Of a stretch of 64,000 bases of DNA, positions 3,178 through 28,140 are shown piece by piece. The DNA comes from Brucella gallinifaecis. GTDB lineage: Bacteria > Pseudomonadota > Alphaproteobacteria > Rhizobiales > Rhizobiaceae. Under the pieces are notes generated by a model, which saw only the letters and a list, made by a program, of their open reading frames with translations, was not told where the DNA came from and did no database searches. How positions within the stretch are numbered: the first letter of the stretch is position 1; every line of letters starts with the position of its first letter. The stretch lies in contig NZ_ML636800.1 in NCBI RefSeq assembly GCF_006476605.1, positions 248,001 through 312,000 on the forward strand, in the 5' to 3' direction. The position numbers were made by a program, and so were the translations under genes.

Positions 3178-4332
3178 TCAGTAGGCGTGATTGCTTTCGT
3201 CTTCGATATCACTCTTCTCAACCTTGCCCCACAGGACCTTGTAGACCCATGACGTATAGGCCAGGATAAGCGGCAGGAAGATCAGTGTAACCACCAGCAT
3301 GATGAACAGTGTCATATGGCTTGATGATGCATCCCAAACCGTCAGACTCGAGCGTAAATCAATCGACGATGGCAGAATGAACGGGAACATTGAGACGCCA
3401 ACCGACGAAATAATTCCGAAGATTGAAACCGCACCAAACAATATTGGCGCAATCTCTCTTTTCATCCGCAGCGTGAGAAGCACAAGCAATGGGCCCAGAA
3501 TACCAAGTGCAGGCGCAATCAGCAGAACAGGATAGTTCATATAATTGTCGAACCATGCTGCATGATCCAGTTCCACGACCTTGCGCAGCGGATTTGACGG
3601 ACCATTTGGCGCAATCGTGCTCGTGATCTTATAACCCGAAACCCACATCCAGCTGATAATACCAGCCAGAACATAGAGAACAGTGGTTAGGACAGCTGCC
3701 ACGCTACCATAGGAACGCGCGCGTGCCTGAACATCACCAGTCGTTTTAAGTACCAGCCAGGCTGCCCCATGCATAACCAGCATGGCAACGGAAAGCAGTC
3801 CGCAAAGTAATGCAAACGGATTTAGCAGACCAAAGAATGTTCCATCATAGAATATCTGAAGATCGCCATTGAACCGGAACGGCACGCCCTGCAGGACATT
3901 GCCCACGGCCACACCAAAGATCAGCGATGGCACAAAGCCGCCAATGAACAGTGCCCAGTCCCAGCCCGTACGCCACGCATCACTATCGCGTTTTGAACGA
4001 TATTTGAAACCGACCGGACGCAGGATAAGAGCGAATAATATGGCAAACATTGCCAGATAAAAGCCCGAGAAGGACACTGCGTAAAGGGGTGGCCATGCAG
4101 CAAAGATAGCGCCACCGCCAAGGATCAACCAGACCTGATTGCCCTCCCATACCGGCCCGATCGTATTGATGACAACCCTTCGTTCAATGTCGGTTTTGCA
4201 AACAAACGGCAGAAGCGTGCCAACGCCAAGGTCAAAACCATCCATTGCGGCAAAGCCGATCAGCAATACGCCGAGCAGCACCCACCAGATGACGCGTAGT
4301 GTTTGATAGTCCAACAAATCGCTGAGTATCAT
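3178..4332 (-). CDS. cydB: Cytochrome d ubiquinol oxidase subunit II
   Basis: CydB is the structural partner of CydA in the high-affinity quinol oxidase that reduces oxygen to water at low oxygen tension. The 384-residue product is of normal length and starts with the family signature (RVIWWVLLGVLLIGFAAMDGFDLG), with several further hydrophobic helices, including GPVWEGNQVWLILGGGA in the first third. It follows cydA after 5 nt, so the two are almost certainly cotranscribed and translated together, and cydX follows. The C-terminus (KVLWGKVEKSDIEDESNHAY) is cytoplasmic and acidic. Confidence 0.97.
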   Translation of the reverse strand: MILSDLLDYQTLRVIWWVLLGVLLIGFAAMDGFDLGVGTLLPFVCKTDIERRVVINTIGPVWEGNQVWLILGGGAIFAAWPPLYAVSFSGFYLAMFAILFALILRPVGFKYRSKRDSDAWRTGWDWALFIGGFVPSLIFGVAVGNVLQGVPFRFNGDLQIFYDGTFFGLLNPFALLCGLLSVAMLVMHGAAWLVLKTTGDVQARARSYGSVAAVLTTVLYVLAGIISWMWVSGYKITSTIAPNGPSNPLRKVVELDHAAWFDNYMNYPVLLIAPALGILGPLLVLLTLRMKREIAPILFGAVSIFGIISSVGVSMFPFILPSSIDLRSSLTVWDASSSHMTLFIMLVVTLIFLPLILAYTSWVYKVLWGKVEKSDIEDESNHAY

Positions 4333-4337
4333 ATTCT

Positions 4338-5915
4338 TTACTCCGCCGGTGCAATGCTGGCAGGTGCGAGCATTGCTTCCGGTTTGCTGTCTGGTTCAGG
4401 TCCAGCCTTGATTGCACGCAACATCAGGCCCATTTCGATAATAAACAGGACCGTATAAATTGCGACAAAACCGGCAATCGTCATCAGAACCGTCGAAGCG
4501 CCAAGATTGGAAACGGCAACAGCCGTTGGCAGAATTCCTTCAATAATCCATGGCTGGCGTCCAAATTCAGCGACAATCCACCCCATTTCTGCTGCAATCC
4601 ACGGAAGCGGGATTGAGAAAACGGCTATTTTCAACAGAAACGGATAGTGGTCCAGCTTGCGACGAGCAGACAATACAAAGAAGGTTCCGGTAAGCAGGAT
4701 CAGGAAGAAACCAATGCCAACCATGATGCGGAAGGACCAGAACAGTGGCAATACACCCGGCACCGTATCATTTGCAGCCTGTGTGATCTGCGCATCGGTT
4801 GCCTGCCGTGGATCATCAACATAGCGCTTGAGAAGAAGCGCATAGCCCATCCACTGGCTGTTATCGGCAAATGCGTCTTTCACATCCTGCGGCACAGCGC
4901 TGGTATCCTGAGCGGCACGAATTTTCTGCAAGGCATCGTAAGCAATCAGGCCCTTGCGGATATGGCCCTGCGCATTTTCAACCAATTGCTCAATGCCTTC
5001 AATCGGCGTTGTCAGCGAGCGCGTGCCAATCAATCCCATGACCCAGGGGATATGAACTGCATAATGGGTTTCGCGTGATTCCTGATCAGGAAAGCCAAAT
5101 ACGGTAAACGAAGCCGGAGCTGGCTCTGTTTCCCACATGGCTTCAATTGCCGCGATTTTCATCTTCTGATGTTCATTGGCGAGATAACCACTCTCATCGC
5201 CCAGAACAACAACAGAAAGAGATGCAGCAAGACCAAAAGAGGCGGCCACAGTCATTGAGCGCTTGGCGAGTTCTGTCGAACGGCCTTTGAGCACATACCA
5301 GGCTGAAACGCCGAGCACAAAAATCGAAGCCGTTACATAGCCCGCTGAAACCGTATGAACGAATTTTGCCTGCGCAACCGGGTTCATCAGAACGGCAAAG
5401 AAATCAGTAATTTCCATGCGCATGGTTTCAGGATTGAAAGCCGAGCCGACAGGATTTTGCATCCAGCCATTGGCGATCAATATCCATAGTGCAGAAAAAT
5501 TCGAGCCGGCAGCGACCGCATAGGTGGCCATCAAATGCCCGACCTTGGACAGTCGATCCCAGCCAAAGAAAAACAGACCGACAAAGGTCGCCTCAAGGAA
5601 AAAGGCCATCAGACCTTCAATTGCAAGCGGCGCCCCGAAAATATCACCGACATAATGGCTGTAATAGCTCCAGTTCATGCCGAACTGAAACTCCATCACG
5701 ATGCCCGTCGCGACACCCATAACAAAGTTGATACCAAACAGCGTACCCCAGAACTTGGTCATCTGCCGCCAGATAAGCCGTCCGGTCATAACATAGACTG
5801 TTTCCATGATGGCCAGCAGCACGGAAAGACCTAATGTCAAGGGTACGAAAAGGAAGTGATAAAGTGCCGTGATTGCAAATTGCAATCGCGACAGGGAGAC
5901 AATATCGAATTCCAT
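4338..5915 (-). CDS. cydA: Cytochrome d ubiquinol oxidase subunit I
   Basis: CydA carries the three haems (b558, b595, d) and the quinol site of the bd oxidase. The start at 5915 (MEFDIVSLSRLQF) was chosen because it matches the usual CydA N-terminus; the frame is open 17 codons further upstream. His20 in LYHFLFVPLT corresponds to an axial haem ligand, and the GRQPW motif lies in EFGRQPWIIEGILPTA. The loop between helices 6 and 7 is long (from KMKIAAIEAMWETE to about PGVLPLFW), so this is the E. coli-like long Q-loop type, not the CIO short-loop type. Length 525 residues is normal. It lies between cydC and cydB on one strand. Confidence 0.97.
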   Translation of the reverse strand: MEFDIVSLSRLQFAITALYHFLFVPLTLGLSVLLAIMETVYVMTGRLIWRQMTKFWGTLFGINFVMGVATGIVMEFQFGMNWSYYSHYVGDIFGAPLAIEGLMAFFLEATFVGLFFFGWDRLSKVGHLMATYAVAAGSNFSALWILIANGWMQNPVGSAFNPETMRMEITDFFAVLMNPVAQAKFVHTVSAGYVTASIFVLGVSAWYVLKGRSTELAKRSMTVAASFGLAASLSVVVLGDESGYLANEHQKMKIAAIEAMWETEPAPASFTVFGFPDQESRETHYAVHIPWVMGLIGTRSLTTPIEGIEQLVENAQGHIRKGLIAYDALQKIRAAQDTSAVPQDVKDAFADNSQWMGYALLLKRYVDDPRQATDAQITQAANDTVPGVLPLFWSFRIMVGIGFFLILLTGTFFVLSARRKLDHYPFLLKIAVFSIPLPWIAAEMGWIVAEFGRQPWIIEGILPTAVAVSNLGASTVLMTIAGFVAIYTVLFIIEMGLMLRAIKAGPEPDSKPEAMLAPASIAPAE

Positions 5916-5994
5916 CTCTTTAGCCGGGGAACCGGCCCTCCTGATGTTATGAGCTGCTAGCGGCATATGCCGAAAACAGCCCCCTACTCATTCT

Positions 5995-7677
5995 TTACCT
6001 CAGGGAATTGAGGATTCTGCCAAAAGACGCTTCTTCTTTGGACATCATTTGAACAAAAGCGCCTTGATTCAAAACAATGGCTCGCTCACAAATGCGTGCT
6101 TCACGCTGAATATGTGTTGCAATCAGCAATGTACGGCCTTTGGCCTGTTCACTCAGGCATGTAAGCACATCTTCAGCCGTCACCTGATCAAGCCCTTCTG
6201 TCGGCTCATCAAGTAGCCACAGGGGTGCATCGGTCAAAAACAGACGCGCCAAAGCAAGCCGTCTGGCCTGACCGCCAGACAGGCCCAAACCGCCCTCGCC
6301 CAGAAGTGTATCCAAACCTTCTGGCTGAGATTTCATGAATTCGCCAAGTCCCGCAGCTTGTAATGCGGCATGAATATCCGCATCGTCCGCGTCCGGTTTT
6401 GCAATTTTAAGATTGTTGCGAAGACTGTCTTTGAACAGTTCAGTGCGTTGTGTCAGAAGCCGCGCAGGAAGAGCATAAACTTCACCACTCTGAGCATGAA
6501 CCTCTCCCGCGAGAACATTAAACAGCGTCGATTTACCCGCACCACTTACGCCAACAACAGCAACATGCTCACCTTGTTTTATAGTGAGATCACCGACTGT
6601 CAATGCGGCTGCCAGTGCCCCTTCATGCCGGACAATAACGCCCTTAAGCTCGACAGCATTGCCTTTCGCCGGCAAAGGCAGGCTGTGGATCATATCCGAA
6701 GCTGCAAGTGCAGGATTAATGCGTCGCGCTGCCAGCACAGTGCGACCAAGTTCCATTGCTCCGCGCCTTAGGGCTGCAAAAGGCTCCATAGAACCAAGAA
6801 TGATCAAAAGTCCCAATGCCGCAACTGGCGCATTAATAAGCTCTGCCTGCATAAGAAGACCCACACCAACAAGCCCTCCAGCCAGAAGAGCAGCATGAAG
6901 GATGCCGAGTTTTACTCCGGTTGACGCTTCGATCCGGTTCAAGATGCGGTCGCTTGTTGCAATATAGCTGTCCGCACGCATTATGCTGGTCTTTTGATTG
7001 ACCAAGCGTCCTGCCATAATGAGTTCTGTCTGGCCTGCGACCAGATCAATGGTACGTGCACGTAAGGCTTCAGTCCCTTTGGCACGCTGACGCATTGGTT
7101 TTTCAGAATGTCTCGCAGCGCGCAGCGGCAGGCCAAGTCCAAAGCCAAGAAGGATCAGCGCGAATATCAATCCGAACGCCGGATGCATTAACCCCAGTGC
7201 AAAACCTGCAATGACAGCTGTTGCTAAGGCTGCACCAGCTGGCACGACTACGCGCAGATAAAGAGAGTCGAGCGCGTCAATGTCGGCAGTCAGCCGGAAC
7301 AAAAGCCGTGCAGGCCGTTTCAATAATGCATTCGCCGCCGCAGGCCGCGCCCAGGCACGAAACAACTTTTCACGAAGAGCCGCCAGAATAGCCAATGTAG
7401 CTTCATGTGTTACCAACCGTTCCAGATAGCGGCTTCCCGTGCGTAGCAATGCAAAGAAGCGGATACCTGCCGCAGGCATAAATACATCAAAGATGATCGC
7501 AGTCGAAACACTCAAACCCGCAATTGCTGTTGCCGTAATGAACCAGCCAGAAAGTCCCAGCAGGGCAATACCTGCCAGCACAGTCATGGTTGCACAGATG
7601 ATACCTGCGTAGAGAAGCTTGCCTTTGCTACGGAAGAAAAGGTGCAAAATGGGTCGTAGTGCCTGAAGACCATTCAT
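5995..7677 (-). CDS. cydC: Thiol reductant ABC exporter subunit CydC
   Basis: CydC and CydD form a heterodimeric ABC exporter that moves glutathione/cysteine to the periplasm and is needed for bd oxidase assembly. The 560-residue protein has an N-terminal six-helix domain (about residues 1-310) and a C-terminal nucleotide-binding domain. The Walker A motif reads GVSGAGKST, the signature LSGGQARRLALAR, and Walker B LWLLDEPTEGLD. It overlaps cydD by 4 nt, which implies coupled translation. Cyd ABC genes directly before cydAB support the assignment over other exporters. Confidence 0.94.
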   Translation of the reverse strand: MNGLQALRPILHLFFRSKGKLLYAGIICATMTVLAGIALLGLSGWFITATAIAGLSVSTAIIFDVFMPAAGIRFFALLRTGSRYLERLVTHEATLAILAALREKLFRAWARPAAANALLKRPARLLFRLTADIDALDSLYLRVVVPAGAALATAVIAGFALGLMHPAFGLIFALILLGFGLGLPLRAARHSEKPMRQRAKGTEALRARTIDLVAGQTELIMAGRLVNQKTSIMRADSYIATSDRILNRIEASTGVKLGILHAALLAGGLVGVGLLMQAELINAPVAALGLLIILGSMEPFAALRRGAMELGRTVLAARRINPALAASDMIHSLPLPAKGNAVELKGVIVRHEGALAAALTVGDLTIKQGEHVAVVGVSGAGKSTLFNVLAGEVHAQSGEVYALPARLLTQRTELFKDSLRNNLKIAKPDADDADIHAALQAAGLGEFMKSQPEGLDTLLGEGGLGLSGGQARRLALARLFLTDAPLWLLDEPTEGLDQVTAEDVLTCLSEQAKGRTLLIATHIQREARICERAIVLNQGAFVQMMSKEEASFGRILNSLR

Positions 7678-9413
7678 TCAGCAGCCCTCTTTTGCCAGAT
7701 TTCCGTTGCTACGCTCATCTTATCAAGGCGAATGATACGATCCATGCGGTTTGCAAGCATCTCATCATGCGTGGAGATTATCAGCGTTTTGCCCTTGGCA
7801 AGATTGATCAGGCTTGTGCCAATACGATTGGCTGTTTCATGATCAAGATGAGCTGTCGGTTCATCAGCGAGAATAATATCAGCACTCTGATCGACAGCAA
7901 CACGTGCCAAAGCAAGTCTGAGGGCTTCACCACCGGAAAGTCCGGCTCCATTTTCACCAATAATGCCTGTTCCCGTAATACCGGCAACATGGTCAAGTGC
8001 CATCTGATCAATGATAGAATGCGTTTTATTTGCATCGATATCCCGGCCAAGCGTAATATTAAATCGGGCGCTTCCAGCAAAAATATGCGGTTTTTGCCCA
8101 ACCCAGCGCATTCGTGAACGAAGCATTGCCGCTGTTTCAGCTTGCAGCACAACGTTACCAATACGGATTTCGCCAGACTGTGGTTGTGTAAGTCCCGCAA
8201 TCAGGGCCAGCAAAGTGGACTTGCCATAGCCACTTGGCGCGAGAAGAGCAACATGCTCACCCGCTTCAATATCAAGGTTGAAATCTTTGAAAACATCCGG
8301 CCCATCTGCATAATGAAAGCTAATATCACGCAAGATGATTGAAGGTTCAGTCCCGGCCATTTTGTTGGACTGCAGTGCTCCCAGAACAGGCATCTCATGA
8401 ATGGCCAGATTTTCCAGCGCATCTATTGCAGCCTCGCCTGAGGCCCGGTCATGCCAGACGGTAGAGAGGTCACGCAAAGGTTCGAAAAAAGCAGGCGCAA
8501 GCAAAAGGATAAATAGCCCTTCTGCGAGGGTGAGCTTGTGCCCCCATGCGCCATAATCAAGCGTTCCAAGAAGATGAAAGCCTATATATACCGCAACCAT
8601 GGCAACGCCGATTGCTGCAAAAAGTTCCAGAACTGCTGATGAGAGAAATGCAATGCGCAAGACAATCATCGTCTTTTTACGCAAGGCTTCAGCATTATCC
8701 CGCAAGCGCGTTGCAGTCATATCCACGGCATGAAAGCTGCGAATAGTTGCCAGTCCGCGCAGCCGATCCAGCAGAAATCCATTCATGTCACCCAGGGCAA
8801 CAAGTTGTTTTTCACTGGCTGCTTTTGCGCGCCAGCCAATCAAGGCCATGAAAATCGGTATTAAAGGCGCTGCTATCAACAAGGTCAGCGCAGCAATCCA
8901 TGAGAACCACAGAACCACCAGCAAGATTGCCAATGGCACCAGCATGACGCGAATACGCACTGGTACAAAACGTGACAGATATGGAACCACCATCTCTGCC
9001 TGCTCTGCAAGAATGCTGGCGGCCTCACCCGAAGAAGATCGTGACGTATCAAGCGGTGAGCGTTGCGAGAGTGCTGTGACCGCTTTTTCACGCAGTTTTG
9101 CCAGTTCCGATCGTGCAGCATCGAAAGCCATAGTTGCGCCACGCGCATCAAGAATGCTGCGGATGCAGCCAAGAAGGAATAAGGCAATAGCTAGATAGTA
9201 GATTGTTGCATCAAAGCCGGTACTGGCAAGTAAACCGACACCATAAGCGATAATTGCAGCTTGCGGCAGCCATATGAGCGCGGCCATGGCCTGAAGCCGC
9301 GCAGCTTTTTTAAGGAGATGTGGAACAGGACGACGCCGCGAACGACGTTTATCGCCCGGCTTTTCGCTCTCCTGTTGCTCCACTTCTTCCGTATGGGCAT
9401 GCGCGATTGTCAC
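7674..9413 (-). CDS. cydD: Thiol reductant ABC exporter subunit CydD
   Basis: This is the partner half-transporter of CydC, with the same role in exporting thiols for bd oxidase assembly. The 579-residue product has a basic N-terminal stretch (DKRRSRRRPVPHLLKK), a membrane domain, then an ATPase domain with Walker A APSGYGKST, signature LSGGEALRLALAR and Walker B IILADEPTAHLD. The start is a GTG at 9413 that overlaps the TGA of the upstream regulator (GTGA), so translation is coupled. An ATG further in is possible but would lose the overlap. Confidence 0.93.
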   Translation of the reverse strand: MTIAHAHTEEVEQQESEKPGDKRRSRRRPVPHLLKKAARLQAMAALIWLPQAAIIAYGVGLLASTGFDATIYYLAIALFLLGCIRSILDARGATMAFDAARSELAKLREKAVTALSQRSPLDTSRSSSGEAASILAEQAEMVVPYLSRFVPVRIRVMLVPLAILLVVLWFSWIAALTLLIAAPLIPIFMALIGWRAKAASEKQLVALGDMNGFLLDRLRGLATIRSFHAVDMTATRLRDNAEALRKKTMIVLRIAFLSSAVLELFAAIGVAMVAVYIGFHLLGTLDYGAWGHKLTLAEGLFILLLAPAFFEPLRDLSTVWHDRASGEAAIDALENLAIHEMPVLGALQSNKMAGTEPSIILRDISFHYADGPDVFKDFNLDIEAGEHVALLAPSGYGKSTLLALIAGLTQPQSGEIRIGNVVLQAETAAMLRSRMRWVGQKPHIFAGSARFNITLGRDIDANKTHSIIDQMALDHVAGITGTGIIGENGAGLSGGEALRLALARVAVDQSADIILADEPTAHLDHETANRIGTSLINLAKGKTLIISTHDEMLANRMDRIIRLDKMSVATEIWQKRAAE

Positions 9414-10788: not shown

Positions 10789-11300
10789 GCTGATTGCTCC
10801 TCTTTTAAGATGTCCCTCGCACCGAATATGCGAATAAGCGGCTGTTCATAGCGTTGTTTGATTGTCGTCCGCCACGCCTTGGCATCTTCGAGATCCAGAA
10901 CATGAATTGTCAGTGCCTTTCGGGCAACATTATAATCCACCCATGCAGTTCCCGGCGTTGTTGTTATGATACAGGCAAGAATTGCCAATGCCGTACGGTT
11001 CTCAAGTTCCAGCGGAATGACTACAAAACCGGGATGACGCTGTTTTCGAGGTGACAATATAAGCTTCACAACAGCCACATTTGATGTGAGAATGTCGATA
11101 CTCACCGCACCAAACAGCCATATCATTGTCGGAATTGAACGCAGATGATTTTTTTGCGGTTCCAGCGCCGTCATTGCATAGCAAGCGAGCAGCGAAATCG
11201 GAATCGACAAAAGCAGCTGTGCCCGTGTGAAGCCATTGAGCAAAAGCCAGAATATAATCAAAGCGACGAAGAGCAGTGGGAAAGGCAGAATTTTTCTCAT
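10785..11300 (-). CDS. phaE: Cation/proton antiporter subunit E (PhaE/MnhE)
   Basis: The 171-residue protein has N-terminal helices (FPLLFVALIIFWLLLNGF) and a conserved soluble part with TALAILACIITTTPGTAWVDY and LTIHVLDLEDAKAW, both typical of MnhE. It belongs to the antiporter complex and is encoded between phaD and phaF with 4-nt overlaps on both sides. Confidence 0.92.
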   Translation of the reverse strand: MRKILPFPLLFVALIIFWLLLNGFTRAQLLLSIPISLLACYAMTALEPQKNHLRSIPTMIWLFGAVSIDILTSNVAVVKLILSPRKQRHPGFVVIPLELENRTALAILACIITTTPGTAWVDYNVARKALTIHVLDLEDAKAWRTTIKQRYEQPLIRIFGARDILKEEQSA

Positions 11301-12931
11301 TTTACCTCCACTGTTTCTGCGCCAACACGCGGCGCTTTCAACACACTATTGATATAATCCTGCGGCGAATGCAGCGAACGAGCAGTTGCATCCATATAGC
11401 GCATGGCCGGGCCAGCACCGATTGTCAGGGCCAGACACACACCCAGAAGACCGGCAATCGGCACCACTTCCCGCACCAGAACACGAGGAACATTGCCTTC
11501 CAGCGAAGCCCAGAATGTACGAATACCGGTACGTGTCATGGCAATGAGGGCAGAGAGTCCGGACAACAATATAAGCGCAATTAACACCCAGCTTGCCGGA
11601 CTGACAGGCATTGCCAATGTTGGTGCCGGGCCATCACCATTAAACACCGCAGCAAGGATCAGAAATTTAGCGATAAAACCTGAAAACGGAGGGAGACCAA
11701 TAAGCAAAATTACAACAATTGCAAAACAGGTGCCAAGAATAGCAAGGGTTGCGGGCAAAACAACGCCAACTTCCTCTTCCTCTTCTTCCTCCTCATCATC
11801 ACCATAGGCTTCTATTGTAACAGCAAGAACGTTAGCCGCCGCATCCTGCCCGCGCTCAACCAGTTCTATCAGCAAGAAGAAGGCGGCAATCGTCAAGGTC
11901 GAACTGACCATATAAAACAGGGCAGCGCCGGTCATGGCCGTATTGCCGCTGCCAATGGCTGCAAGCAATGTGCCGGAAGAGACCAGAATGCTGTAGCTGG
12001 CAACGCGCCCCATGGCCTGTGATGCGACCACGCCAATCAGCCCGAAGGCCAGCGTCACCATCCCCCCGTAATAGAGCCAGTCATTACCGAACCCATAAGA
12101 TTCACCCGCTCCTATACCAAACATGAGTGGCGACAAGCGTAGCAGGACATAAATGCCAACCTTGCTCATAATCGCAAAAATAGCAGCAATTGGCGCTGCT
12201 GCGGCCGTATAGGTAGGCACAAGCCAGAAGTTTAGCGGCCACATGCCCGCTTTAACAAGAAAGGCAACGGCAAGAATAGCAGCACCCGCTTCAAGCAGCA
12301 TGCGATCTTCGGCAGCAACCTGAGAAATCTTTTGCGCAAGATCTGCCATGTTCAGAGTGCCTGTAACACCATAGATCAGACTGACACCAATCAGAAAAAG
12401 CGATGATGCAACAAGATTGACGGCAATGTAATGCATGCCCGCCTTGACCCGCGCCGGTCCTGAACCATGCAGTGCCAATCCATAGGATGCTGCCAGCATC
12501 ACTTCAAAGAAAACGAACAGGTTAAACAAATCGCCAGTCAGAAATGCGCCGTTCAGCCCCATCAGCAAAAGCTGAAAGATTGTATGGAAATTCGGACTGG
12601 CTTTATACCAGTGCGCCAGTGCAAAGCTCAATGCTGCCAGTGCAAGCACGCTTGTGAGCACAAGCATCAATGCCGCAAGACGGTCCAGAACCAGCACGAT
12701 ACCAAAAGGCGCAGGCCAGTTACCAATCAGATAGACATCAGCCGCAGGGGCTATATCACTGGCAACACCAAGCAATGTGAAAGCGATGACAATCAGGCCA
12801 ATAATGGAGATCGTGTTGATCGCCATCTTGAGCTTGCGTTTGCGCTCATCAAACAGCAGCAAAAACGCCGCCGTTACAAGCGGCAACAGAATTGGCGCAA
12901 CAATGAGATGTGACTTCCAATCCAAAATCAA
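11297..12931 (-). CDS. phaD: Cation/proton antiporter subunit D (PhaD/MnhD)
   Basis: PhaD is one of the two large proton-translocating subunits related to the NuoL/M/N subunits of complex I. The 544-residue protein has about 14 hydrophobic helices. The core includes FFEVMLAASYGLALHGSG, a conserved Lys-bearing helix (FLVKAGMWPLNFWLVPTY) and further helices downstream. An odd feature is a run of two Asp and eight Glu (GDDEEEEEEEEVGV) in a predicted cytoplasmic loop after about residue 375, encoded by a GAG/GAA purine tract at roughly 11770-11805. It overlaps phaC and phaE by 4 nt. Confidence 0.94.
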   Translation of the reverse strand: MILDWKSHLIVAPILLPLVTAAFLLLFDERKRKLKMAINTISIIGLIVIAFTLLGVASDIAPAADVYLIGNWPAPFGIVLVLDRLAALMLVLTSVLALAALSFALAHWYKASPNFHTIFQLLLMGLNGAFLTGDLFNLFVFFEVMLAASYGLALHGSGPARVKAGMHYIAVNLVASSLFLIGVSLIYGVTGTLNMADLAQKISQVAAEDRMLLEAGAAILAVAFLVKAGMWPLNFWLVPTYTAAAAPIAAIFAIMSKVGIYVLLRLSPLMFGIGAGESYGFGNDWLYYGGMVTLAFGLIGVVASQAMGRVASYSILVSSGTLLAAIGSGNTAMTGAALFYMVSSTLTIAAFFLLIELVERGQDAAANVLAVTIEAYGDDEEEEEEEEVGVVLPATLAILGTCFAIVVILLIGLPPFSGFIAKFLILAAVFNGDGPAPTLAMPVSPASWVLIALILLSGLSALIAMTRTGIRTFWASLEGNVPRVLVREVVPIAGLLGVCLALTIGAGPAMRYMDATARSLHSPQDYINSVLKAPRVGAETVEVK

Positions 12932-13266
12932 TTCTCCTTGCCGTCGACGTGGTCGGTGCGCGTCATACCGCGCGATGCAAGCAGAACAACCAGGAAAAGA
13001 GCCGTCATTGCAAATCCGATAACAATAGCAGTCAGAACCAGTGCCTGCGGCACAGGGTCGGTATATTGCGCCGCCTGAACATTGATACCTGAATCAAGCA
13101 CCGGTGGCGCATTGGTGCGCAGACGCCCCATCGAAAAGATGAACAGATTGACCGCATACGAAACAAGCGCAAGGCCAATCGCAACCTGAAACGTACGTGG
13201 ACGCAAGATCAGCCACACACCGGACGACATCAAAACACCGATTGCCACAGCGAGAACGAGTTCCAT
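12928..13266 (-). CDS. phaC: Cation/proton antiporter subunit C (PhaC/MnhC)
   Basis: The 112-residue protein has three helices and resembles NuoK, as expected of MnhC: GVWLILRPRTFQVAIGLALVS and DPVPQALVLTAIVIGFAMTA are the family motifs. It overlaps phaD by 4 nt and touches the phaAB stop by one base. Confidence 0.93.
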   Translation of the reverse strand: MELVLAVAIGVLMSSGVWLILRPRTFQVAIGLALVSYAVNLFIFSMGRLRTNAPPVLDSGINVQAAQYTDPVPQALVLTAIVIGFAMTALFLVVLLASRGMTRTDHVDGKEN

Positions 13267-16181
13267 CAGATGTCCTCCTTCGCAGCGGCAAGTTTTTCGA
13301 CACGGTGTTTACGGATCGACTGATGCGCCAATGCGATCAACATGAGAACCGTTGCACCAACAACGAGTGCGAAAACGCCAATATCAAACAGAAGTGCGCT
13401 TGCGACAGGCATTTTTCCGACATGCGGTATATCCGCATACTGAAAATAGGTTGTCAGGAAAGGATAGCCGAAAAGCCAGGCGCCGGCACCGGTCGCAGCC
13501 GCAATCAGCAAGCCAAAACCAATCCAGCGAACAGGCAGAATACGCAAGTGATCCTCTACCCAGCGCGTACCAGCCGCGAGATATTGCAAAATGAATGCAA
13601 TCGCCAGAGTTATACCTGCCGCAAAGCCGCCGCCCGGCAAATCATGACCGCGAAGGATCAAATGCACAGCAAGCACGATAATGACCGGGAACAGCCATTT
13701 CATGATGACAGATGGCACCGCCAGATAATCGGTCAGGGTCTCACCCTTTTCACGATCTTCCATCGCTTCATCGTAAGCATCCTGAATTTTCTGCTGCGCA
13801 GTTGAACCTGTGCTGTCAGGTGCCGGGCGGAAACGGCGTAACAATGCGTAAACAGTCAGGCCAACAATGCCGAGAACCGCAATTTCTCCGAATGTATCAA
13901 AGGCACGGAAATCAACAAGTGTGACGTTCACAACGTTTTTGCCGCCCCCTCCTGTGTAGGAATTCTGGAGGAAATAATCACCAATGCTTTCCGGAGATGG
14001 TCTCGTCATCATCGCGTAGGAAATGATGAAAACACCAACACCGCTGCCAATTGCCAGTATGAAATCGCGATAACGGCGGATTCTCGGGCCAAACTTTACA
14101 GGAACAGGATCGGGATCTTCAAAGCGTTTCGGCAGCCAGCGCAGACCAAGAAGCAGCAGAACTGTTGTTACAATTTCAACCAGCAACTGGGTCACGGCAA
14201 GATCAGGAGCAGAGAGCCAGACAAAGGTTATACAGGTAATAAGTCCGGCCCCTCCCAGCAATATCAAAGCTGCGAGACGGTGATATTTTGCCTGATACGC
14301 GGCTCCGATGGCGCAGGCGCCACCCAAAATCCACAGACCCGCAAAGATTGGATCAATTGGTTGCACACCGAGCATACCGGCCTGAATACCGTCCTCAAAA
14401 ATTGGCCATGCAGCAGCGATAAACGCCAGGACAACCACAATACGAAGCTGCGGCTGAAGGCGTCTTGTACTGAGGAAACTCTCAGCCTTACGTGCCCAGT
14501 TCCATGAAACGGTAACAAGCACACGTTCAAAAATACGCTGCCCCTGCAAATGGCGGAACAATGGCGGACCATCTTCACTGGTTGCAAGATAATTTTTAAG
14601 TGCCCAGAAAACAATGATACCGCCAATCATGGCAACAATACTCATCACCAGCGGCAGGTTGAACCCATGCCAGACGGAGAGACTATATTGTGGTGTTGCA
14701 TCGCCCAGAACAGAAGTTACCGCTGAATGCAAAAACGGACCAATGGCAATATTGGGTATGATACCGATCAACAGGCAGAGAAAAACCAGAAGTTCAATTG
14801 GTCGGCGCATCCAGTGTGGCGGTTCATGCGGTGTTTTTGGCAAATCATGGGGTGCAGGGCCAAAAAACGTCGAATAGATAAACCGCAACGAATAAGCGAC
14901 TGTGAAAACACCAGCCACGGTCGCAATATAAGGTGTGAGCGTATCAAGGCTGGATGCCATATGGGTTTCGACGGCTTCGGCAAAGAACATTTCCTTTGAA
15001 AGAAAACCGTTGAGCAGTGGCACACCGGCCATCGACGCGCTTGCCACCATGGCAAGGGTCGCGGTGTAGGGCATCGCTCGCGCAAGCCCGCTCAGTTTGC
15101 GCATATCGCGCGTGCCGGTTTCATGGTCGATAATACCGGCCGCCATAAACAGCGATGCTTTAAAGATAGCATGATTGACCATGTGAAAAATGGCAGCAAC
15201 AGCCGCAAGTGGACTGCCAAGACTTAAAAGCGCGGTAACAAGACCGAGATTGCTGATGGTGGAATAAGCAAGCAACCCCTTGAGATCCTGCTGGAACACG
15301 GCAAAAAAACTGCCGATCAGCAATGTTGTCAGACCTGCCAATCCGAGAAGCCAGAACCATTCTTCAGTTCCGGAGAAAACAGGCCATAAGCGCGCCAGCA
15401 AAAACACACCCGCCTTCACCATCGTTGCGGAGTGTAAATAGGCTGAAACCGGCGTAGGTGCTGCCATCGCGTTCGGCAACCAGAAATGAAACGGAAACTG
15501 TGCAGACTTAGTGAAAGCTGCCATCAGAATAAGAACAAGAGCCACCGTATAAAGCGGATGCGCACGAATAATGTTGCCTGATTCAAGAACTTTGTCGAGA
15601 TCGTAACTGCCAACGATATGGCCAAGCAGCAACACACCAGCCAACAAACAGAAGCCGCCAATGCCGGTTACAGTCAGCGCCATACGTGCGCCATCACGCG
15701 CACTGGCATTATGATACCAGTAGCCGATCAGCAGGAAAGAGAAGATACTGGTCAGTTCCCAGAAAACCGCAAGCAACACGATATTGCCCGACAGAACCAC
15801 ACCAAGCATTGCCCCCATAAATGCCAAAAGAAAGGAGAAAAAGCGCGGAACCGGATCTTCAGGCGACATATAGTAGCGTGCATAGATCACAACCAGCAAA
15901 CCAATGCCGGTAATCAGCATGGCAAAAAGCCACGCAAAACCATCCATGCGAAAAGTTACATTCAGACCATAATTCGGAAGCCAGTCGATCGATCCCCGAA
16001 TAACCCCGCCATCCGAAACGATCGGATAAAGGCTTGCAGTAATTACAAAGGCAACAAGCGCAATCGCAGCCGTGAACCAGGCAGAGCCGCTTCTGTCAAC
16101 TCCACGAAACAGACCTGTTACAGCGCTGCCAAGAAATGGAAGAAGGACCAGCAAAAAAAGCATCCTGCCGTCCATCGTCAT
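13266..16181 (-). CDS. phaAB: Cation/proton antiporter subunit A/B fusion (PhaAB/MnhAB)
   Basis: The 971-residue protein fuses subunit A (NuoL-like, with the C-terminal MnhA extension) to subunit B. The N-terminal two thirds hold the proton-pumping domain (TSIFSFLLIGYWYHNASARDG; FTKSAQFPFHFWLPNAM; HSATMVKAGVFLLARLWP). After about residue 800 comes the MnhB part (SVIMKWLFPVIIVLAVHLILRGHDLPGGG..). This fused form is the group-2 Mrp arrangement found in Rhizobiales pha operons. It is the first gene of a six-gene operon (AB-C-D-E-F-G). GGAGGC lies just before the start, and the second ATG two codons in is an alternative start. Confidence 0.95.
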   Translation of the reverse strand: MTMDGRMLFLLVLLPFLGSAVTGLFRGVDRSGSAWFTAAIALVAFVITASLYPIVSDGGVIRGSIDWLPNYGLNVTFRMDGFAWLFAMLITGIGLLVVIYARYYMSPEDPVPRFFSFLLAFMGAMLGVVLSGNIVLLAVFWELTSIFSFLLIGYWYHNASARDGARMALTVTGIGGFCLLAGVLLLGHIVGSYDLDKVLESGNIIRAHPLYTVALVLILMAAFTKSAQFPFHFWLPNAMAAPTPVSAYLHSATMVKAGVFLLARLWPVFSGTEEWFWLLGLAGLTTLLIGSFFAVFQQDLKGLLAYSTISNLGLVTALLSLGSPLAAVAAIFHMVNHAIFKASLFMAAGIIDHETGTRDMRKLSGLARAMPYTATLAMVASASMAGVPLLNGFLSKEMFFAEAVETHMASSLDTLTPYIATVAGVFTVAYSLRFIYSTFFGPAPHDLPKTPHEPPHWMRRPIELLVFLCLLIGIIPNIAIGPFLHSAVTSVLGDATPQYSLSVWHGFNLPLVMSIVAMIGGIIVFWALKNYLATSEDGPPLFRHLQGQRIFERVLVTVSWNWARKAESFLSTRRLQPQLRIVVVLAFIAAAWPIFEDGIQAGMLGVQPIDPIFAGLWILGGACAIGAAYQAKYHRLAALILLGGAGLITCITFVWLSAPDLAVTQLLVEIVTTVLLLLGLRWLPKRFEDPDPVPVKFGPRIRRYRDFILAIGSGVGVFIISYAMMTRPSPESIGDYFLQNSYTGGGGKNVVNVTLVDFRAFDTFGEIAVLGIVGLTVYALLRRFRPAPDSTGSTAQQKIQDAYDEAMEDREKGETLTDYLAVPSVIMKWLFPVIIVLAVHLILRGHDLPGGGFAAGITLAIAFILQYLAAGTRWVEDHLRILPVRWIGFGLLIAAATGAGAWLFGYPFLTTYFQYADIPHVGKMPVASALLFDIGVFALVVGATVLMLIALAHQSIRKHRVEKLAAAKEDI

Positions 16182-20900: not shown

Positions 20901-20932
20901 AATGGCCGGGTAATTTACAACCCGGCCATTTT
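20901..20932. terminator. Bidirectional terminator between the binding protein and Anbu genes
   Basis: AATGGCCGGG and CCCGGCCATT form a perfect 10-bp stem with loop TAATTTACAA, followed by TTT. It lies between convergent genes, and its last base meets the end of the Anbu gene. Confidence 0.85.
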
Positions 20933-21666
20933 CATTTCTCAAAACTGAACGAAGGTAGTTGCTCTAGTGCCGCCTTCAAGGCTTCAGACCAGCTTTCTGA
21001 GACTGTTTGATAATAGGGATCACTCGCTTCAAAACGCTTGTGTTCCCCCAGTTCAAAACTGTCTGCCGCATAGACCTGCATGTCGAGCGGCAAGCCAACA
21101 GACAGGTTTGCTTTCAGCGTTGAATCAAATGATACCAGCAGCAATTTCACGGCATCCTCAAAGCTCATATCCGGTTGATAAGCACGCACCAGAATTGGTT
21201 TTCCATATTTGTTTTCACCAATCTGGAAGAAGGGCGTATCTTCAGAACTTTCGATAAAATTTCCTTCCGGATAAATATAGAATAAGCGCGGCTGACCGCC
21301 TTTGATCTGCCCGCCAAGCACAAATGAAGCTCCAAAAGCATCGGCATTCTGGCCACCGGTTGCAGAGCTGCTTATTACTTCCTTGACTGTATCGCCAATC
21401 AGACGTGCGGCCTGAAACATCGAAGGGGCTTCAAATAAGGATGGATGACGGTCTTCCGGCGCTTTCATCCGCTCTTCAAGCAAGCTTGCAACCGCTTGCG
21501 TTGTCGCAAGATTGCCTGCCGACAAAAGGACCATCACCCGCTCACCGGGCTTTGTCCATGTCCGCATTTTTGAGAACTTGGAAATATTATCGAGGCCAGC
21601 ATTCGTCCGTGTATCCGACATGAATACAAGGCCGCGATCAATTTTCATTCCAACGCAATAGGTCAT
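20932..21666 (-). CDS. Anbu-type proteasome-like peptidase
   Basis: Anbu (also called bacterial proteasome homologue) is an N-terminal nucleophile hydrolase related to HslV and the 20S beta subunits. The start at ATG 21666 is chosen over the TTG one codon upstream because it places Thr directly after Met (MTYCVGMKID), so Met removal exposes a catalytic Thr1. Asp in FMSDTRTNAG (position 17 of the mature chain) and a Lys in KFSKMRTW (position 32) complete the proteasome active-site pattern. The length of 244 residues fits the family. It is the distal gene of a four-gene minus-strand cluster with a transglutaminase, an alpha-E protein and an ATP-grasp protein, the classic Anbu neighbourhood. Substrates are unknown. 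Confidence 0.92.
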   Translation of the reverse strand: MTYCVGMKIDRGLVFMSDTRTNAGLDNISKFSKMRTWTKPGERVMVLLSAGNLATTQAVASLLEERMKAPEDRHPSLFEAPSMFQAARLIGDTVKEVISSSATGGQNADAFGASFVLGGQIKGGQPRLFYIYPEGNFIESSEDTPFFQIGENKYGKPILVRAYQPDMSFEDAVKLLLVSFDSTLKANLSVGLPLDMQVYAADSFELGEHKRFEASDPYYQTVSESWSEALKAALEQLPSFSFEK

Positions 21667-21703
21667 CAATAGTTTCCGGCAGGCAAATCTTAAGTTGAAA
21701 TAA

Positions 21704-22501
21704 TCACTGCCCTACATTGATGTGGACCGCAAGACTTTCCACCGCTCCTCCAAGCCTTACACCGGATATCGGTGCTGCATCGCGATAATCCAAACCCGTC
21801 GCAAGTCGAACATAGCGATCATTGGGACAGACATTGTTGGCCGCATCAAACCCCACCCAGCCCAGACCATCGATATGCGCTTCGACCCAGGCGTGACTTG
21901 CGGTTTGCTCGTCTGTGTCTTCCATAAGCAGATAGCCAGAAACATAACGCGCCGGGATTTTCAATAACCGCGCCGCAGACAGAAAGATATGGCTATGATC
22001 CTGACAAACACCCTTTCCTGCCTCCAGTGCGCTTTCAGCATTGGTAGCAACACTGGTCGTACCGGGCATATATTCCACCGCCATATGAACCCTGTTCATC
22101 AGATCATGCAGCAATGCCAGCCGTTCTTGACCCGTGCCCAGATCATGTGTGAGTTCACGAATACGTTCTCCCGGCTGTGTCAATCGCGTTTCGCGCTCAA
22201 AAAGCCATAATGGAGCATATCCATAGACTGGCCCGAGAACACCAACACGATCTTCCACATCGACACGACCACTCGCAGTTATGATAATTTCGGTGATATT
22301 GCGGGCATGTTGAACAAGATCGGTTTTATTGCCAAAACCGTCAATATAGGAGACCTCCGGTTCTCCGCCTTCAATCTTCAATTCCCAATGTTTAACGAGT
22401 TGGCCGGGAAGAGTCGGTGGCCGCAGACGCAGACGCTGCACGGCATAAGGAACCGGGTTTCCATAACTATAATGGGAAACGTGCCGAATATTGAGCAACA
22501 A
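21704..22501 (-). CDS. Transglutaminase-like protein of the Anbu cluster
   Basis: The 265-residue protein has an N-terminal bacterial transglutaminase-like beta domain (about residues 1-80, MLLNIRHVSHYSYGNPVPYA) and a C-terminal papain-like core. The Cys is in GKGVCQDHSHIF, the His in ASHAWVEAHIDGLGW, and the Asp in VGFDAANN, so the catalytic triad is complete. It could be a protease, amidase or transglutaminase. The start appears to be TTG at 22501 with AGGTGAT 6 nt upstream. It lies 9 nt after the alpha-E gene and 37 nt before the Anbu gene. Confidence 0.88.
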   Translation of the reverse strand: MLLNIRHVSHYSYGNPVPYAVQRLRLRPPTLPGQLVKHWELKIEGGEPEVSYIDGFGNKTDLVQHARNITEIIITASGRVDVEDRVGVLGPVYGYAPLWLFERETRLTQPGERIRELTHDLGTGQERLALLHDLMNRVHMAVEYMPGTTSVATNAESALEAGKGVCQDHSHIFLSAARLLKIPARYVSGYLLMEDTDEQTASHAWVEAHIDGLGWVGFDAANNVCPNDRYVRLATGLDYRDAAPISGVRLGGAVESLAVHINVGQ

Positions 22502-22510
22502 GCAATCACC

Positions 22511-23452
22511 TCAATAGAAATTATAGGTTTCCGCGATCTCGTTGCCGAGCCGGTTGTTACGCGCAATGAACTCCGTCAGAAATTCATGCAGACCAATATC
22601 AAAAATAGCGCTGATATCCTGATTTTGCAGTGTCGCATAAATCTGTCTGGCCGTTTCATGACAGATATCGCTATCGCCATAATCCTTGGCAAGAAAGCTC
22701 AAATGCCCATTGATGCTCTGGTAGCAATGGTGGAGCGAGCGCGGCATACGTCCATTCAGAATGAGATAATCTGCAACATGCGCCGGACGATAATCCCCAT
22801 CATAGACCCACCGATAGGATCGATGTGCTGACACAGACCGCAGGATAGACTCCCATTGATAATTGTCGAGGGTCGTACCAACATAGGACACCGCAGGTAA
22901 TAACACGTAATATTTCACATCAAGAATACGGGCCGTATTATCGGCACGTTCAATAAATGTGCCAAGGCCTGCAAAATCAAAAATCTCATTGCGCAGCATC
23001 GTTCCATGAAACGCGCCGCGAATAAGAGCCGTTTCCCGCTTGATCTGGTCAAGCAGCGGAGGCAAGTCAGCCTCTTTCAACGGTTTGTATAATGATTTTT
23101 TCAAAACCATCCACGCTTCGTTGATACTTTCCCATGCCTCGCGCGTCAGCGCGGTTCGCACCATACGCCCGTTGGAGCGTGCTGTTTCCATACACGCCAT
23201 AACACTGGATGGATTATCCATATCGCGCAGCAGAAAATCAGCAACATTTGCTGCCTTATAAGCCTGATATTTCGCTGAGAATGACTGACTTGCGCCAGCC
23301 GATACCACGACCGAAGACCATTCTTCCGGTGCATCAGATGTTTTTGTAAGCGCCATACGCAGTCCCGCATCAACCAGACGTGCCATGTTTTCAGCACGCT
23401 CGATATAGCGAAACATCCAGTAAAGCCCGTTTGCCGTACGGCCAAGAAGCAT
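22511..23452 (-). CDS. Alpha-E domain protein (DUF403) of the Anbu cluster
   Basis: The 313-residue, largely helical protein matches the alpha-E family: MLLGRTANGLYWMFRYIERAENMARLVDAGLRMAL at the N-terminus, LGTFIERADNTARILDVKYYVLLP in the middle, and repeated E-R-A-(D/E)-N helices. Its biochemical role is unknown; it always keeps company with ATP-grasp and transglutaminase genes. It lies between those two here, with short gaps. Confidence 0.9.
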   Translation of the reverse strand: MLLGRTANGLYWMFRYIERAENMARLVDAGLRMALTKTSDAPEEWSSVVVSAGASQSFSAKYQAYKAANVADFLLRDMDNPSSVMACMETARSNGRMVRTALTREAWESINEAWMVLKKSLYKPLKEADLPPLLDQIKRETALIRGAFHGTMLRNEIFDFAGLGTFIERADNTARILDVKYYVLLPAVSYVGTTLDNYQWESILRSVSAHRSYRWVYDGDYRPAHVADYLILNGRMPRSLHHCYQSINGHLSFLAKDYGDSDICHETARQIYATLQNQDISAIFDIGLHEFLTEFIARNNRLGNEIAETYNFY

Positions 23453-23511
23453 AAATTTATTCCCCTTTGCACGCTCTGATCTTTACGCCAGCTGATGCGT
23501 GATATTTTACC

Positions 23512-24924
23512 TTAATCGTCGAGTACCCAGGTATCTTTCGTGCCGCCGCCCTGACTGGAATTTACAACCAGTGAGCCTTCTTTCAAAGCCACGCGCGTCA
23601 ATCCGCCCGGTGTGATCCGAATACGATCAGAGACCAGAACAAATGGCCTGAGATCGACATGACGTGGCGCAAGACCGCTTTCTGTGAAAATCGGAGTTGT
23701 GGAAAGTGCAAGCGTTGGCTGCGCAATATAGTTGCGCGGGCGCGCTTTCAACTTTTCAGCAAAGACATCACGCTCGGCTTTGGTTGCTGCCGGCCCAACC
23801 AGCATTCCATAACCACCCGATCCATGGACTTCCTTGACAACAAGATCGCCCAGATTATCAAGTACATAAGCAAGACTGTCAGGTTCCGAACAACGCCATG
23901 TCGGTACATTTTCAAGAATCGCTTTACGCCCGGTATAGAACTCAACAATCTCGGGCATGTAGGAGTATATCGCCTTATCGTCAGCTATACCTGTTCCCGG
24001 TGCATTGGCGATCGTAATATTACCGGCACGATAGACATCCATAATACCCGGAACGCCTAGGGTTGAATCGGGTCTGAATGTCAGCGGATCAAGAAAATCA
24101 TCATCAACCCGGCGATAAAGCACATCAATCCTGCGATAGCCCTTGGTTGTGCGCATGGCAACACGACCATCAACAACACGAAGATCACTGCCTTCCACCA
24201 ATTCGACGCCCATCTGATCGGCAAGGAAAGCATGTTCAAAATAGGCAGAATTATAAATACCCGGCGTCAGGACAGCGACAGTCGGCACGCCTTGCGTTCC
24301 GGGCGGCGCAACACTTGAAAGAGACTGACGCAATAATTGCGGATAATTTTCAACGGGCCGAACCTTGACGTTCTGAAACAGCTCTGGAAAAAGCTGCATC
24401 ATGGTTTCACGGTTTTCCAGCATATAGGAAACACCGGACGGCGTACGGGCATTGTCTTCAAGTACATAAAACTGATTTTCAGCCGTGCGCACAATATCAA
24501 CACCAATAATATGCGTATACACATTACCCGGTGGGCGGAAACCGATCATCTCCGGCAGAAACGCCTCATTATTGGTGATCAGCTCTTTTGGAATGCGCCC
24601 TGCCCGCACAATTTCCTGACGATGATAAATATCATCGAGAAAAGCATTCAGCGCCATAACCCGTTGCTCGATGCCCTGCGAAAGCTTCCGCCATTCCTGA
24701 CCAGATATAATACGCGGGATAATATCAAACGGAATAAGCCGCTCAGCCGCATCTTCATCGCCATAGACTGCAAATGTGATGCCGGTTTTGCGAAAAACGC
24801 TCTCGGCATCCTGCGTTTTTTGCAGAAGCTTATGCTGATCCTGCTCGTCGATCCACTGCTTGAGAAATTCATATGGCGGACGAACACCCCCGCCCTTATT
24901 AAGCATTTCATCAAATGGCGTCAC
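23512..24924 (-). CDS. Circularly permuted ATP-grasp protein of the Anbu cluster
   Basis: The protein belongs to the circularly permuted type 2 ATP-grasp family (COG2308), a predicted carboxylate-amine/thiol ligase. The GTG at 24924 (then TPFDEMLNKGGGVRPPYEFL) is taken as the start because AAGGGGAA lies 7-8 nt before it; an in-frame TTG at 24948 has no such site. Motifs include FDIIPRIISGQEWRKLSQGIEQRV, NARTPSGVSYMLENR and the nucleotide-loop-like VVKEVHGSGGYGMLVGP. Length 470 residues is normal. It is the first gene of the cluster. It may attach an amino acid or peptide tag, but that is inference from family. Confidence 0.9.
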   Translation of the reverse strand: MTPFDEMLNKGGGVRPPYEFLKQWIDEQDQHKLLQKTQDAESVFRKTGITFAVYGDEDAAERLIPFDIIPRIISGQEWRKLSQGIEQRVMALNAFLDDIYHRQEIVRAGRIPKELITNNEAFLPEMIGFRPPGNVYTHIIGVDIVRTAENQFYVLEDNARTPSGVSYMLENRETMMQLFPELFQNVKVRPVENYPQLLRQSLSSVAPPGTQGVPTVAVLTPGIYNSAYFEHAFLADQMGVELVEGSDLRVVDGRVAMRTTKGYRRIDVLYRRVDDDFLDPLTFRPDSTLGVPGIMDVYRAGNITIANAPGTGIADDKAIYSYMPEIVEFYTGRKAILENVPTWRCSEPDSLAYVLDNLGDLVVKEVHGSGGYGMLVGPAATKAERDVFAEKLKARPRNYIAQPTLALSTTPIFTESGLAPRHVDLRPFVLVSDRIRITPGGLTRVALKEGSLVVNSSQGGGTKDTWVLDD

Positions 24925-25056: not shown

Positions 25057-25109
25057 GCACTTTAGCTGGGCCCACACTTTAGCTGGGCCCCCATACTTTA
25101 GGTAGGCCT
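25057..25109. repeat. Short tandem repeat, about three 17-bp units
   Basis: CACTTTAGCTGGGCCC occurs twice in tandem (from 25058 and 25075), and a degenerate third copy (ATACTTTAGGTAGGCC) follows from about 25093. The mogA stop codon lies inside the third copy, so the array starts at the very end of the gene and continues downstream. Confidence 0.75.
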
Positions 25110-27065: not shown

Positions 27066-27986
27066 TCAAGATTTTCCGATCTTTTCGAGATCATAGGGCG
27101 TGGACTGATACATTTCATTGATCCAGTTGCCGAAAAGCAAATGGGCATGTCCACGCCAGCAATTCTGTGGCTTGCGGCTGGCATCATCATTCGGAAAGTA
27201 ATTTGCAGGAACTGCTGTATCCGGTAAAAGCTGAATATCCCGAAAATATTCATCAGCCAGTGACGTCGTATCATATTCAACATGGTTGAACATGTGCAAA
27301 GAACGATGCTTCGGATCCTCCAGCAAACAGAGGCCACTCTCCGGGCTATCGACAAGAACCTTCAAGCCGCTATCCAGCGGGATATCCTCTTTTCGCACTT
27401 CCGTCCAGCGAGATACAGGAATGGCGAAATCATCCGAAAACCCACGCAAATAGGGTGACGATGGTGCAAGATTCTGCTGACTGAACACACCAAATGCCTT
27501 GCTCGGCAAGTCATGCTTGTCCATTCCATGAAAATGATGCACGGCAGCCTGGGCAGCCCAGCAAATATTCAGTGTGCGATGAACATGGGTTTGGGTCCAG
27601 TCAAAAACCCGCTGCATTTCATCCCAGTAAGTCACTTCCTCAAACGGCATACGCTCAACAGGCGCTCCGGTGATGACAAATCCATCGAAGCGTTCATGAC
27701 GCACATCTTCCCATGGCCGATAAAAAGACAGCATATGATCAACTGGTGTGTGACGTGCGACGTGATTGGTAATACGAACAAGCGTCAACTCCAGTTGCAA
27801 CGGGGTCGCGCCAAGCAGCCGTGCAATCTGCGTCTCCGTTGTCACCTTGTTTGGCATCAGGTTAAGAAGACCAATTTTCAGCGGCCTGATATCCTGACGA
27901 ATAGCATCTGCCTCACGCATGACCATAACGCCCTCCGCTTCGAGAACGCTGGTTGCCGGAAGATCATCAGGAATTTTTATAGGCAT
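27066..27986 (-). CDS. metA: Homoserine O-acetyltransferase (MetA fold)
   Basis: MetA acylates homoserine in the first committed step of methionine synthesis. The 306-residue protein starts [20 protein letters not shown]. Catalytic Cys lies in LNICWAAQA and catalytic His/Glu in HMFNHVEYD. The residue pair after GAP is VE ([13 protein letters not shown]): Glu at this position marks acetyl-CoA use, whereas Gly marks succinyl-CoA, so acetyltransferase is the better call although many MetA entries are labelled succinyltransferase. The leader carries an apparent SAM-sensing RNA and a hairpin over the start codon, so expression should fall when SAM is plentiful. Confidence 0.92.
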
Positions 27987-28027
27987 ATACGTCAGTCCTT
28001 CACTTTATCGAGGCAGACGCATATGGC
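27982..28027 (-). promoter_or_regulatory. Hairpin sequestering the metA start codon
   Basis: In the minus-strand transcript, GCCATATGCGTC (28027-28016) can pair with GACGTATATGCC (27993-27982) over 12 positions with one mismatch and one G-U pair. The 3' arm contains the metA AUG, and the loop contains the ribosome-binding site (GAAGGA). This would be the expression platform of the riboswitch and points to control of translation. Confidence 0.55.
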
Positions 28028-28047
28028 TTCATCCGTATATTTGCCGG

Positions 28048-28140
28048 TTGGGCCACATCCTTCCTTTGAGGAAGTACCACCTTGCCCGGAAAGGCAGGTT
28101 GGCGTTGGGCGTCGCCCCAACTCTTAATGTGCCACCACTT
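28048..28140 (-). ncRNA. SAM-I-clan riboswitch in the metA leader
   Basis: The minus-strand leader shows the SAM-I/SAM-IV core in order: P1 5' strand (GGCACAT), AAGAG, a short P2 hairpin (TTGGG..CCCAA), GCCAACC, P3 (ACCTGCC..GGGCAAGGT), the AAGGTGGTACTTCC segment comparable to AAGGTGCTAAATCC of SAM-I, P4 (TTCC..GGAA), and the P1 3' strand (ATGTGGCC). P2 is much shorter than in standard SAM-I, with no room for the kink-turn, so it resembles the SAM-I/IV variant. Rhizobiales metA leaders were first described with the unrelated SAM-II class. I matched this by memory of the consensus only. Confidence 0.62.

Follow-up and report, generated by a model that had tools for sequence, protein, structure and literature searches.

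In a 64,000-nucleotide stretch of the Brucella gallinifaecis genome (assembly GCF_006476605.1, contig NZ_ML636800.1, positions 248,001 to 312,000; hereafter the window), four minus-strand genes at 20932–24924 encode, in transcription order, an ATP-grasp ligase, an Alpha-E protein, a transglutaminase-like protein, and the proteasome-like hydrolase Anbu. The identification of the set is far beyond chance. Across genomes, Anbu depends asymmetrically on the ATP-grasp and Alpha-E genes (the ligase module), being tied to them while they are not tied to it, and the transglutaminase is dispensable in Anbu clusters. We tentatively favor, at somewhat below an even chance, a make-and-trim amide system in which ATP-grasp and Alpha-E would form an amide at the C-terminus of a peptide or protein, to be hydrolyzed or recycled by Anbu with the transglutaminase in an assisting role. 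The locus is real, is nothing unusual in its lineage, and has been described before: excerpts of PMC5666114 and PMC6376114, the form in which both papers are cited throughout, present the operon and refer to Iyer et al. (2009) and Valas and Bourne (2008) on it. Neither the operon nor the idea of tagging or peptide synthesis is new, and the comparative results are the addition here.

The dependence of Anbu is seen in raw genome counts, which ignore kinship, from two overlapping samples: a phylum sample of 299 genomes and a class sample of 192 genomes from the host's class. In the former, 113 genomes have both Anbu and Alpha-E, 2 have Anbu only, 58 have Alpha-E only, and 126 have neither; in other words, Alpha-E is present in 113 of 115 Anbu genomes, and Anbu is missing from 58 of the 171 Alpha-E genomes. 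The pattern holds in the 212 genomes of at least 3 Mb (99, 2, 47, and 64, respectively). HslV, taken as a control, is found in 278 of 299 phylum genomes; a tally by Alpha-E status gives 165 of 171 with and 114 of 128 without, one genome lacking HslV having been left unlisted and so miscounted. The original prediction held that these families co-occur with Anbu and named a lack of co-occurrence as its refuter; the association is instead very strong. The class sample has Alpha-E in 75 genomes, ATP-grasp in 76, the transglutaminase N-domain in 76, and matches to the Anbu query in 59. Close Anbu genes (E < 1e-50) number 54, in 48 class genomes, and Alpha-E sorted as not fused is present in 47 of these, the remaining one (G127) having its ATP-grasp gene at a contig end. 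Counting genes within 4 kb as linked, 33 of the 54 lie near both Alpha-E and a transglutaminase domain and 8 near Alpha-E only.

Gene order is also well kept. The sequence ATP-grasp, Alpha-E, transglutaminase, Anbu is complete in 59 of 80 named loci, which are the best 80 of 590 confirmed, chosen by ATP-grasp similarity, and some of which end at contig edges; 16 of these 80 carry the first three genes without Anbu and 5 have other arrangements. Loci with the first three genes and no adjacent Anbu occur in Rhizobium, Agrobacterium, Shinella, and other Rhizobiales (L048–L050, L052–L056, and L087). Two Burkholderia clusters (L041, B. stagnalis; L043, B. lata) encode ATP-grasp proteins 83–84% and Alpha-E proteins 68% identical to those of the alphaproteobacterial window, followed by a Cys-less transglutaminase and then a large protein whose N-terminus is transglutaminase-like; they look like transfer between classes.

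The transglutaminase-like protein (21704–22501, minus strand, TTG start) scores 75 bits with Pfam Transglut_core and 65.8 bits with Bact_transglu_N, and the only solved relative found by sequence is a distant one, 3isr. Its Cys-His-Asp triad is complete, as originally read (C166, H203, and D219 in the alignment). The accompanying view that this protein cuts or transfers the amide does not stand as an obligatory step everywhere, because 8 of 41 Alpha-E-linked Anbu clusters in class genomes have no transglutaminase domain within 4 kb and the catalytic Cys is lost in 7 of 78 aligned transglutaminases that adjoin ATP-grasp and Alpha-E (an alignment that includes two of the large kind, L107 and L110). 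Two of the seven Cys-less proteins (L105 and L109) adjoin an Anbu, and in a ninth linked cluster (G076) the sole transglutaminase is large and on the opposite strand. The absence label changes five times on a 30-row Alpha-E tree, with at least three changes forced by well-supported branches. A second ATP-grasp/Alpha-E cluster shares domain families with the window set, but in it the two proteins are fused (open frames of ~800–1020 amino acids) and accompanied by a transglutaminase and a protein of ~1100 amino acids with a transglutaminase-like N-terminus; its ATP-grasp part is 32–37% identical to the window's in three examples. All eight genomes without a linked transglutaminase own this fused cluster, compared to 4 of the 33 others, which suggests that it may supply a transglutaminase in trans where the linked copy is absent. 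It is absent from the source genome, in which a single Alpha-E matches.

The identities of the four genes, and their positions and strand, agree with the original prediction according to open reading frame coordinates, Pfam scores (all above cut-off), and matches to solved structures. The first gene (23512–24924, minus strand, likely GTG start at 24924) encodes a circularly permuted ATP-grasp ligase of the COOH-NH2 ligase type by both family profile (CP_ATPgrasp_2, 563.7 bits; CP_ATPgrasp_1, 500.8 bits) and fold, and matches the solved 3n6x at 655 bits. In a fold comparison, the modeled ligase is closer to glutathione, glutathionylspermidine, and peptide-spermidine synthetases than to RimK; a RimK-type ligase was rejected, as RimK is not the closest fold among ATP-grasp enzymes. 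Glutathione and glutathionylspermidine synthetases, YgiC/YjfC, and Cp1B have the ligase fold in common with the window protein at ~8–16% identity, and we know of no Alpha-E or Anbu partner for any of them. In Devosia marina (L084, 5944–7407), the ATP-grasp frame is interrupted, leaving two open reading frames 3 bases apart in the same frame, either a pseudogene or a sequencing error.

The Alpha-E family consists of a duplicated helical unit, and the all-helical window protein (22511–23452, minus strand; Pfam Alpha-E, 320.6 bits) conforms to it. Each half carries an ER motif (E18-R19 and E168-R169), and the N and C halves align with an hhalign E-value of 2e-15, compared to 0.05–0.77 for ten column-shuffled controls. 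The AlphaFold2 model has a predicted local distance difference test (pLDDT) score of 91, with low confidence at residues 185–189 inside a conserved region (180–200); Arg occupies 11 of the 45 best conserved positions, and no solved relative was found by sequence at E < 0.9.

Anbu (20932–21666, minus strand) scores 44.5 bits with Pfam Proteasome (cut-off 22.4) and matches five distinct solved sequences at 230–304 bits: 5loy (304 bits, residues 3–240), 5nyj (288 bits), 5nyf, 5nyw, and 5lox. Three of these were deposited as Anbu and two as “Peptidase”; 5lox, one of the latter, is named Anbu in PMC8665760. The likeliest start is the ATG at 21666, giving M-T-Y-C... with Thr directly after the initiator Met and no propeptide. 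The TTG at 21669 chosen by the open reading frame lister was rejected, as it would bury the Thr. With the predicted removal of Met, the sequence has the Thr1, Asp17, and Lys32/33 of an Anbu. That Thr, Asp, and Lys stand where expected had been proposed at the outset, and each is present in 60 of 60 aligned sequences (59 named Anbu proteins and the window's); all three are also intact in 16 further Anbus, among them unlinked and solitary copies and one divergent protein.

Gaps between the four genes, calculated from coordinates, are 59, 9, and 37 base pairs (bp) in transcription order, and the set is apparently intact. Its nearest named relative in the scan is that of Brucella tritici (ATP-grasp 95%, Alpha-E 89%, transglutaminase 85%, and Anbu 87% identity). 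Compared to the known Anbu operon of Pseudomonas, Yersinia, and others (Valas and Bourne, 2008; Iyer et al., 2009; Fuchs, 2017; Piasecka, 2018), the four families, their order, and the catalytic residues match, and nothing of substance differs. Besides this Anbu, the source genome has one other proteasome-family match, which lies on a different contig and scores as HslV.

Of 79 upstream regions, 17 have a sigma-54-like site between -160 and -30 relative to the start of the ATP-grasp gene, against a null mean of 0.65 (maximum 2) and a reverse-strand count of 1. The cut-off was fixed once a preliminary scan had given 27 of 80 regions at p ≤ 0.05, where 4 were expected; several matches come from related genera, leaving fewer independent cases. 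COG3484 is among the groups predicted to be sigma-54-regulated in an excerpt of PMC12316311, and upregulation in nitrogen-limited P. putida, as well as phosphate release by the ATP-grasp protein, has been reported (PMC5666114/PMC6376114). The set is probably nitrogen-linked in many relatives. No convincing sigma-54 site was found upstream of the B. tritici cluster. Upstream of the window's ATP-grasp gene, at 25058–25088 (minus strand), GCCCAGCTAAAGTG occurs in two exact copies 17 bp apart; at least two matches with up to two mismatches arise in 6 of 100 shuffles.

Gene identity, correctly placed active-site residues, the asymmetric dependence of Anbu, transglutaminase dispensability, the fold class of the modeled ligase, and promoter-like sites in some relatives are observed here; the substrate, the reaction direction, a physical partnership of ATP-grasp with Alpha-E, and a role for nitrogen are inferred. 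Together with its helical partner Alpha-E, the ATP-grasp protein would activate the carboxylate at the C-terminus of a peptide or protein by forming an acyl phosphate and join to it an amine, which may be an amino acid, a peptide, or a polyamine. Anbu would be a dedicated N-terminal nucleophile (Ntn) hydrolase that removes or recycles the amide product, and the transglutaminase-like protein, dispensed with in some lineages, would assist as an amidase or transferase; nitrogen limitation probably switches the set on in many relatives. RimK-RimB and the rlo operon similarly pair an ATP-grasp ligase with a protease, the latter also having an inactive transglutaminase (PMC12239564, excerpt). By analogy with RimB, which acts on what RimK makes (PMC11957791, excerpt), and with the rlo proteases, which genetically oppose their ATP-grasp (PMC12239564), the asymmetry fits an Anbu that acts on the product of the ligase module. 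An obligatory transglutaminase step does not agree with it. In a more specific form, possible if rather doubtful, ATP-grasp and Alpha-E would be the two subunits of a ligase of the glutathione/peptidyl-polyamine synthetase class, and Anbu, not a proteasome-like degrader, would be an amidase devoted to the one molecule that this ligase makes.

Several results weigh against the make-and-trim account. For 13 of the 54 close Anbu genes (G127's among them, and one located close to a contig end), the surrounding 4 kb hold no Alpha-E. In 11 class genomes the sole Anbu relative is a divergent one; it never lies near Alpha-E, which each of the 11 carries elsewhere. Alpha-E and ATP-grasp were not found in two Anbu-bearing genomes of one genus, both rated 100% complete (G272 and G420), whose solitary Anbus (L119 and L120) keep Thr, Asp, and Lys; because these complete genomes carry an intact Anbu without the ligase module, Anbu can act otherwise than with it, at least in this genus. 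The Alpha-E model has no clear likeness to any fold among the solved structures compared, and no convincing sigma-54 site lies upstream of the window cluster. In the excerpts, Anbu is inactive on standard proteasome substrates (PMC5666114; PMC6376114), the Yersinia bercovieri set shows neither Anbu peptidase activity nor specific interaction of the operon proteins (PMC6376114), and the authors of PMC5666114 (Fuchs) favor protein degradation over the view of Iyer et al. (2009).

In a rival account along those lines, Anbu would be a general protease that works without ATP and clears damaged or surplus protein when nitrogen is limiting, and its neighbors would only modulate it; this is unlikely but the best of the rivals. 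The ring-shaped array of sites, the binding of epoxomicin and MG132, and the conclusion reached in PMC5666114 speak for it, as do the two genomes with Anbu and no ligase module. However, nearly all Anbu genomes keep Alpha-E, while HslV is near-universal with or without it, and the uncleaved standard substrates count against a general protease as well. Tag-and-degrade, in which proteins would receive a peptide tag from ATP-grasp and transglutaminase and then be degraded by Anbu, is distinctly improbable. Co-occurrence is strong and the gene set is that of the published hypothesis (Iyer et al., 2009; Valas and Bourne, 2008, as quoted in PMC5666114 and PMC6376114), but the short gaps leave no space for a tag gene within the cluster (a tag could be encoded elsewhere), no AAA+ match, and so no unfoldase, is found among the four genes, and the transglutaminase is sometimes missing or Cys-less. 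With neither a tag gene nor an AAA+ unfoldase gene, the cluster was rejected as a proteasome-type tag-and-degrade system. The original prediction had offered tag-and-cleave beside peptide ligation and hydrolysis: the former is weakened by the missing tag gene and the Y. bercovieri results, and the latter agrees with the peptide synthesis or tagging role of Iyer et al. (2009), as quoted in the two papers, and is therefore not new. Some other explanation is about as improbable as tag-and-degrade. It is very unlikely that Anbu is a transferase or ligase passing an acyl group made by ATP-grasp to an amine: its relative connectase shows that the fold can ligate, and test peptides were not hydrolyzed (PMC6376114), but no acceptor is known, and in the view of the PMC6376114 authors peptidase or amidase activity is still the likeliest. 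We give scarcely any weight to the speculation that the duplicated Alpha-E, rich in conserved Arg, offers ATP-grasp a polyanionic donor such as an aminoacyl-tRNA. The pair would then be a split relative of the PEARL-type peptide aminoacyl-tRNA ligases, for which descent from ATP-grasp enzymes is proposed.

Elsewhere in the window (45–52% G+C in 2-kb steps), an inverted repeat at 20901–20930, terminator-like on both strands in a consensus scan and no evidence of function, sits between Anbu and a convergent substrate-binding-protein gene. A SAM-I/IV riboswitch (28027–28135, minus strand, 55.9 bits) lies just upstream of homoserine O-succinyltransferase (27066–27986), an ordinary arrangement. Also on the minus strand, and unrelated to the Anbu cluster, are genes for cytochrome bd oxidase subunits and two ABC transporter proteins (3178–9413) and an Mrp-type antiporter set (11297–16181).

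Anbu is in some views the ancestor of the proteasome, and the question of its substrate dates from 2008; we noticed no later paper assigning it a function in a search of openly licensed literature. The comparative result narrows the search by making the ATP-grasp/Alpha-E product central and the transglutaminase optional, and the value of the locus lies in the sharper tests now possible. If the make-and-trim account is true, the original role of the proteasome fold, or one to which it was later put, may have been that of a specific amide hydrolase working next to a ligase, and not that of a bulk protease.
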